The position numbers and the translations under genes were made by a program. The notes beneath the pieces were generated by a model that did not search any database, was not told where the DNA came from, and was given only the letters and a program-made list of their open reading frames with translations. A stretch of 64,000 bases of DNA from Vulcanisaeta distributa JCM 11216 (lineage in GTDB: Archaea > Thermoproteota > Thermoprotei > Thermoproteales > Thermocladiaceae). Location: positions 1 through 64,000 of the forward strand of contig NZ_BBBI01000008.1 of the NCBI RefSeq assembly GCF_001315985.1. Reading direction: 5' to 3'. Positions 55,379 to 57,408 of this stretch are shown in pieces; positions within the stretch are counted from its first letter, which is position 1; every line of letters begins with the position of its first letter.

Positions 55379-56515
55379 GTGAGGCTCCTCGAATACAAAG
55401 GCAAGGAGTTGCTGAATAGGTATGGCGTTAAGATACCCAGGGGGGGCGCCATAGTCAAGAGTCTCGACGACATTAAGGTACTCAACACCCTTAAGTTCCC
55501 ATTGTTTGCAAAGTCCCAAGTACCCTTTGCAGGTAGGGCCAAGATGGGCCTAGTGAGGAGGGTCGACACCATTAAGGATGCGGAGAACGCGGCCAGGGAT
55601 TACTTGGGTAAGGTTATTCAGGACTACCCGATTAGGAAGGTGCTGTTTGAGGAGGGGGGGTTAACGTGGCCAAGGAACTTTACGTATCCATAACCCTGGA
55701 CAGGGAGAACAGGGGGGGTTACCTAATGCTGGCGTCCACGGAGGGCGGCATCGATATAGAGGAAGTCGCGAAGAAAAGCCCTGAGAAGATAATTAGGCTT
55801 TACATAGATGATTACGAGGGACTAAGGGACTACATGATCAGGGGGAGTAGCCCAAAAACTCGGCCTAGAGGGATCTGCGGCGCAGGACTTCGTGACCGTG
55901 GCCAAGGCCATGTATAGGGTATTCACCGAATACGATGCAGAGCTTGTGGAGATAAACCCACTGGCGCTCACAACCGATGGCCAGTTAATAGCCCTTGATG
56001 TTAAGGTCATGATAGATGACAACTCACTGTTTAGGCATCCAGACATCAGTGTTGAGGATAGTGATTACACAATGGAGGAGCTCGAGGCCAGGAAGTACGG
56101 ACTACACTACGTGGAGTTGACGGGCTATGTGGGGGGGATCATGGCCAACGGCGCGGGCCTGACGATGGCGACCATGGATTTAGTCAAGGAGTATGGTCAT
56201 GAGCCGGCCGATTTCCTCGACGTTGGCGGCGGTGCAAGTAAGGATTCGGTTAAGGAGGGATTGAAAATGCTATTAACTGATGATAGGATAAAGGCTGTTT
56301 TAATAAACATATTCGGTGGAATAACGAGGTGCGACGAGGTTGCCAGGGGCGTTGTTGAGGCACTGAATGAAGTCAAGACCAATAAGCCAATCTTCATTAG
56401 GCTAAAGGGCACTAATGAGGAGGAGGGCAGGAAGATACTGGCTGAGGTAGGACTTAAAACCTATGAGACTGCGGAGGAGGCAATGGAGGCGTTATCAAAG
56501 GCTATAAAGAGGTGA
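55379..56515 (+). CDS. sucC: Succinyl-CoA synthetase (ADP-forming) beta subunit (two frameshifts)
   Basis: ATP-grasp beginning '[20 protein letters not shown]' and '[20 protein letters not shown]'; later '[20 protein letters not shown]', '[20 protein letters not shown]' and '[20 protein letters not shown]'. Breaks: G7 55654-55660 (five restores '[10 protein letters not shown]') and G5 55841-55845 (four restores '[18 protein letters not shown]'). Together they add three bases, so the gene returns to its first frame. Length about 378 residues, normal. G7 tracts 55440, 55712 and 56131 encode Gly-Gly where I expect one Gly. Start GTG 55379 follows a CTTTATATA box. Overlaps sucD by four bases. Confidence 0.9.
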
Positions 56516-57408
56516 TGGGCATGGCAATACTCGTTAATGAGAACACGAAGGTCCTGGTCCAGGGAATAACGGGTAGGGAGGGATCAAGGCATACGGAGTA
56601 TATGCTTCAATACGGTACAAAGGTGGTGGCTGGAGTCACGCCGGGTAGGGGTGGTCAGACCGTTCATGGCGTACCTGTATTCGATACAGTCGAGGAGGCA
56701 CTTAGGAAGTTCCCTGACATAAATACGTCAATAATCTTCGTGCCAGCCCAATTTGCGGCTGACTCGGTATACGAAGCAATCGATGCAGGCATCAAGCTAA
56801 TAGTAATAATCACAGAGCATATACCAATACACGACGCCCTAAGGTTCGTGAACTACGCAAAGAGGAAGGGCGTGACCATAATAGGCCCCCCCAACTGCCC
56901 AGGAGTTGTAAGCCCACTGAGGTCTAAGGTCGGCATATTACCAAACCACATATACACCAAGTCGGGGGGGCCGGTCGGTATTGTGTCCAGGAGTGGAACA
57001 TTAACCTACGAAATATCTTACCACCTAACCCAGGCAGGGATTGGGCAGTCAACGGTCGTGGGCATTGGCGGTGACCCAATAATCGGCACAGACACACTCG
57101 AGGTAGTGAAGATGTTTGAGGAGGACCCAGAGACGAAGTACATAGTGGTCATCGGCGAGATAGGCGGGACAATGGAGGAGAGATTGGCTAAGTACATAGG
57201 GTCTGGGAAGGTCACGAAACCCGTGGTGGCCTACATATCGGGCAGGACAGCACCGCCAGGTAAGAGGATGGGGGGGCATGCTGGAGCCATTGTTAGCATG
57301 GGAATGGGCTCCTACGAAAGCAAGGTTAAGGCATTCCAAGAGGTTAATGTGCCCGTGGCCAGAACACCCACCGAGGTTGTTAAACTAATCAAGCAGTACA
57401 TACGTTAA
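56512..57408 (+). CDS. sucD: Succinyl-CoA synthetase alpha subunit
   Basis: 298 residues, unbroken. CoA-binding '[19 protein letters not shown]', '[18 protein letters not shown]', and the catalytic-His region '[15 protein letters not shown]'. Forms the heterotetramer with SucC in the TCA cycle. Three tracts of seven give '[11 protein letters not shown]', '[15 protein letters not shown]' and '[13 protein letters not shown]', whereas the family pattern as I know it is IGPNCPG, one Gly before PVG, and KRMGHAGA. Each tract thus adds one residue close to the active site. ATG 56521 is an alternative start. Confidence 0.95.

Follow-up and report, generated by a model that had tools for sequence, protein, structure and literature searches.

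Homopolymer tracts in sucC and sucD

The window, which is the whole stretch of 64,000 bases analysed here, covers bases 1-64000 of contig C8 of genome G000 (2,422,819 bases in 65 contigs, completeness 67.75%). It carries the genes of both succinyl-CoA synthetase subunits, sucC and sucD, whose products belong by Pfam to the same family as the ordinary enzyme and whose relatives have the ordinary motifs. The open reading frames (ORFs) and the G or C tracts of these genes are listed below, with the lengths of the same tracts in other genomes, mainly the draft G002 and the single-contig genome G007.

55379..55693, + strand: sucC (succinyl-CoA synthetase beta), first ORF fragment; Pfam ATP-grasp_2 (PF08442), E 3.1e-10
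55440..55446, + strand: G7 tract under PRGGAIV; four bases in both G002 and G007
55654..55660, + strand: G7 tract, +2, frame-shifting; five in G002
55666..55917, + strand: middle fragment of sucC, read in a different frame; matches PF08442 over profile positions 104-160 (E 6.9e-18)
55712..55718, + strand: G7 tract under ENRGGYL; four bases in both G002 and G007
55841..55845, + strand: G5 tract, +1, frame-shifting; four in G002 and G007
55892..56515, + strand: sucC, last ORF fragment; Pfam Ligase_CoA (PF00549), E 7e-28
56131..56137, + strand: G7 tract under GYVGGIM; four bases in both G002 and G007
56512..57408, + strand: sucD (succinyl-CoA synthetase alpha); Pfam CoA_binding (PF02629) and Ligase_CoA (PF00549)
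56886..56892, + strand: C7 tract under IGPPNCPG; four in G002
56964..56970, + strand: G7 tract under KSGGPVG; four in G002
57270..57276, + strand: G7 tract under KRMGGHAGA; also seven in G008, four in G007 and three in G002

The first-pass annotation had reported one extra Gly or Pro in conserved motifs of SucC, SucD and several other proteins of the window. Its coordinates and motifs are accurate, and all 12 of the motifs that it quoted sit over seven-base runs of G or C. Their single-residue forms are all present in the compared stretch of G002, and 10 of the 12 are present in that of G007, where GTAGALR and PGDIAE gave no match. When SucC and SucD were aligned with five relatives, all six doubled motifs fell on tracts that are four bases long in G002, G007 or both; in G002 the tract under KRMGGHAGA is three long and is followed by a different base. 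Two runs of four in these genes, at 56346 and 56648, have the same length in G002, which is 97% identical over sucCD and has none of the window's expansions there.

The annotation also took the changes to be neutral to the reading frame. This holds for sucD, the frame of which is open, with three extra residues in the alignment with relatives. It does not hold for sucC, which is spread over three ORFs because of the +2 tract at 55654 and the +1 tract at 55841. The first sucC ORF (55379..55693) ends early behind the +2 tract, and the frame is restored after the +1 tract in the middle fragment (55666..55917). The SucC and SucD proteins of the window differ from ordinary succinyl-CoA synthetase only in residues that we take to be overcalled and in the two frame shifts of sucC.

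The SucD motifs matched in a pattern search were single in 17 of the 19 loci read, from a set of 20; they were doubled in G000 (three motifs) and in G008 (one of three, KRMGGHAGA). Among the 80 named loci scanned with SucD-type patterns, the only doubled form was in L042, which is the record of G008. Sharing by descent, expected of a real adaptive insertion, was not found for the doubled SucD motifs.

Run lengths in the window and in its relatives

The G/C runs of the window do not become steadily rarer with length. Runs of three, four, five, six, seven and eight bases number 1221, 74, 26, 8, 99 and 10, respectively, unlike the A/T runs, the counts of which fall smoothly. In 40 trials of a first-order Markov simulation fitted to the window, runs of seven averaged 7 per trial and never exceeded 14. 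If anything, such a model tends to over-predict these runs, judging by G007, where we found none in 60 kb and a model of the same kind expects about 6.

We compared run lengths one by one between the window and G002 over about 34 kb. In this comparison, in those with G007 and in those of the ribosomal RNA (rRNA) genes and of G030, aligned pieces had to span at least 150 columns at 80% identity or more, and a run was counted only if both flanking bases matched and the aligned partner contained no other base; all others were dropped. The 79 G/C runs that are four long in G002 are four, five, six and seven long in the window in 29, 7, 1 and 42 cases. The four runs of five in G002 are five (1), seven (1) or eight (2) long, and its single run of six is eight long. 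Runs of three are almost untouched, with 530 of 539 still three and the rest seven (three runs), two (four runs) or one (two runs). Altogether 53 of the 84 G/C runs of at least four are altered, which agrees with a threshold in homopolymer length; the three runs of three that read seven are a counterpoint to it. The single-contig genome G007 gives the same picture, as its 44 runs of four are four, five, six and seven long in the window in 15, 3, 1 and 25 cases. The suggestion of the annotation that runs of four had become seven, to be checked against close relatives, is thus supported in both genomes (42 of 79 runs and 25 of 44 runs). In the control comparison of G002 with G007, 40 of 41 G/C runs of four stay four.

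The A/T runs of at least four are unchanged in 82 of 85 cases relative to G002, with three shorter by one base and none longer (67 of 68 runs of four and 15 of 16 runs of five keep their length), and A/T runs of three are longer in the window in only 2 of 375 cases.

The indel tally, made on pieces of at least 88% identity, contains 64 insertions in G/C runs of at least four relative to G002, of which 8 are +1, 6 are +2, 47 are +3 and 3 are +4, and no deletions in such runs. Expansion is even between strands, as the 31 unchanged runs of four comprise 16 of C and 15 of G and the 46 expanded ones 25 of C and 21 of G. No flank rule was apparent when the flanking bases of these 31 unchanged and 46 expanded runs were tabulated informally. 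Outside runs of four, the window has 32 insertions of one base and 7 of two relative to G002, and 26 and 11 deletions of these sizes (30,618 columns). Some of these small indels outside G/C tracts may be errors in either draft, and others may be real changes in non-coding DNA.

Ribosomal RNA genes and other assemblies

Coding genes and RNA genes are both affected, the latter in the G000 16S, the G008 23S and the G030 16S region. Within the window, Rfam profiles at the gathering threshold gave no match. ARAGORN predicted no tRNA in the window, in seven stretches of G000 or in three stretches of G002, and one in five stretches of G008, which is not decisive. One 16S gene was found in G000, cut by the end of contig C19, and was compared in part together with some upstream sequence. 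Here the 27 G/C runs that are four long in G002 are four, five, seven and eight long in 9, 3, 13 and 2 cases, and the 8 runs of five are six, seven and eight long in 1, 3 and 4 cases. Seven or eight bases replace four in 15 of 28 runs relative to G007, 15 of 27 relative to G003 and 14 of 25 relative to G010, and many of the extra bases fall within stretches that are otherwise identical to G007. In a 23S stretch of G008, the 45 runs that are four long in G002 are three, four, five, seven and eight long in 1, 11, 6, 26 and 1 cases. In the 16S region of G030, the 32 runs that are four long in G031 are three, four, six and seven long in 1, 12, 1 and 18 cases. Since rRNA has no reading frame, the +3 seen there means that +3 does not reflect selection for frame, and a ribosomal RNA with that many insertions would be very unlikely to work. 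We found no 23S gene in G000 and, with the search that was used for G000, no 16S gene in G008. In these two cases and at the truncated 16S gene of G000, rRNA miscalls may have disrupted either the assembly or the search.

Counted over whole genomes and both strands, G000 has 4803 G runs of exactly seven, G008 has 3857 and G030 has 7958, and none of the other 78 of the 81 genomes of the class exceeds 310; the single-contig genomes G007, G003 and G010 have 2, 4 and 5. Runs of seven and of six were compared in the 45 genomes of the order, and the other 36 genomes of the class were counted for sevens alone. Among the 45, sevens outnumber sixes in G000, G008 and G030 only. G008 is Vulcanisaeta distributa JCM 11217 (NZ_BBBJ01000001.1, 100% identity over 3,894 bases). 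G030 belongs to another genus of the same family, and its excess of G/C sevens is found in bulk DNA too. G002 (JCM 16159, BBDN01) and G004 (JCM 14467, BBDM01), which are also JCM drafts, have no G/C excess. The completeness of G008 and G030 is 67 and 47, next to 67.75 for G000; genomes of equally low completeness do not have the effect (G002 with 63, G006 with 54, G024 with 67, and others), so completeness is no marker for it.

The window and G008 share 56 G/C runs that are at least four long in G008, and the 44 with a length of four or seven in each genome were tested for association. Both genomes have seven in 19 cases and both have four in 7; in 10 cases the window has four where G008 has seven, and in 8 it is the other way round. 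Expanded tracts are not significantly associated between the two in this weak test (n = 44, odds ratio 1.66, Fisher p = 0.52).

Origin of the extra bases

The doubled Gly and Pro residues are almost certainly translated homopolymer overcalls, an assembly artefact with no biological meaning. The length shift is limited to G/C runs of at least four, is present in rRNA and in proteins, and is restricted to three of the 81 genomes, all of them drafts of low completeness. True G/C runs of at least four would often have been reported in the assembly as seven or eight bases, and runs of up to three and A/T runs would have been read correctly almost always.

A real, frame-neutral expansion of G/C tracts in the lineage, which would have added one residue to many active-site motifs, could account for +3 as the commonest change (47 of the 64 insertions), with many proteins left in frame, and the weak association test leaves room for some sharing with G008 at an odds ratio of 1.66. 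However, rRNA is affected at a similar rate and with the same +3, the 64 insertions also include 14 of +1 or +2 and 3 of +4, sucC is broken by frame shifts, G002 lacks the expansions over the nearly identical sucCD, and the excess is seen in no examined relative except the drafts G008 and G030. We rejected this explanation because of the rRNA insertions and the frame-shifting tracts and regard it as extremely improbable; the annotation had called real expansions in so many active-site motifs remarkable, and the rRNA, the broken sucC and the lack of an excess in nearly all relatives speak against them. Phase-variable or slipping tracts, of mixed lengths in the population with one length reported by the assembly, have no more credibility. 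They resemble the window in that the lengths of G or C runs vary inside genes, and the two peaks at four and seven within one class of tracts would suit them. The changes in the window are nevertheless spread over thousands of sites genome-wide (about 4,800 runs of seven in G000), include rRNA and follow no gene class that we could see, although phase-variable tracts are expected to be restricted to certain genes. There is also no strand bias and no apparent flank rule, A/T runs of equal length are unaffected, and runs of four are short for slippage.

Given the overcalling explanation, the error probably entered the drafts through an Ion Torrent PGM step. PGM runs in which homopolymer length calling was miscalibrated for the G and C flows could have inflated these runs, and a consensus by majority would then have picked either the right or the inflated length, which would give the peaks at four and seven. 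A recalibration step of the PGM base-caller probably starts at runs of four, and a faulty homopolymer calibration of the G and C flows would fit the observed pattern. An artefact of other origin, for example from consensus building, polishing or a different platform, seems to us rather unlikely, and base-specific run-length errors, which fit flow-by-flow chemistry, count against it. So does the documented use of the PGM for the draft of V. souniana (BBBK01; Kato et al. 2023, PMC9872577), the prefix of which neighbours that of G008 (BBBJ01); because of this neighbourhood, the PGM is a likely source of G008 and a plausible one of G000. On the other side, the platform of G008 is deduced from the neighbouring accession, and that of G000 and G030 is presumed. 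A +3 shift is also unlike the usual PGM error as described in the available part of Bragg et al. (2013, PMC3623719). The window resembles the error described in that part in having homopolymer indels with misjudged run length, and differs from it in its sharp onset at four, its restriction to G/C and its typical +3. The same part of the study reports that under-calling dominates in longer homopolymers and that the A or T flows are error-prone, and the window is opposite in being dominated by over-calling (64 insertions and no deletions in G/C runs of at least four relative to G002). Searches of the literature on PGM, JCM drafts, homopolymers and base-caller recalibration gave no account of such an error among the matches listed.

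A base-specific overcall with a threshold, which turns G/C runs of at least four into seven or eight and leaves threes nearly untouched, is likely to be a distinct error mode of a batch of drafts, three of which were seen here. If so, reference databases would contain thousands of false residues and corrupted rRNA genes from such assemblies, and the completeness scores of these assemblies have probably been lowered by the overcalls. Comparing the number of G/C sevens with that of sixes offers a cheap check for affected assemblies. The analysis removes a false biological claim and flags G000, G008 and G030 as assemblies with unreliable proteins, rRNA genes and completeness values. It leaves the knowledge of succinyl-CoA synthetase unchanged and is of use as a quality check only.

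The two other JCM drafts have a pattern of their own in A/T runs. Runs of at least seven number 15 in 140 kb of G002 and 28 in 140 kb of G004; of the single-contig relatives, G010 and G003 each have one in 60 kb, and G007 has none in 80 kb. A/T runs of six are scarce in the drafts, with 6 in G002 and 8 in G004 compared with 13, 9 and 11 in G010, G003 and G007, and one A/T run that is six long in the window has seven bases in G002. The long A/T runs of G002 and G004 are possibly a similar miscall, and the pattern hints at a base-specific setting that differed between runs.
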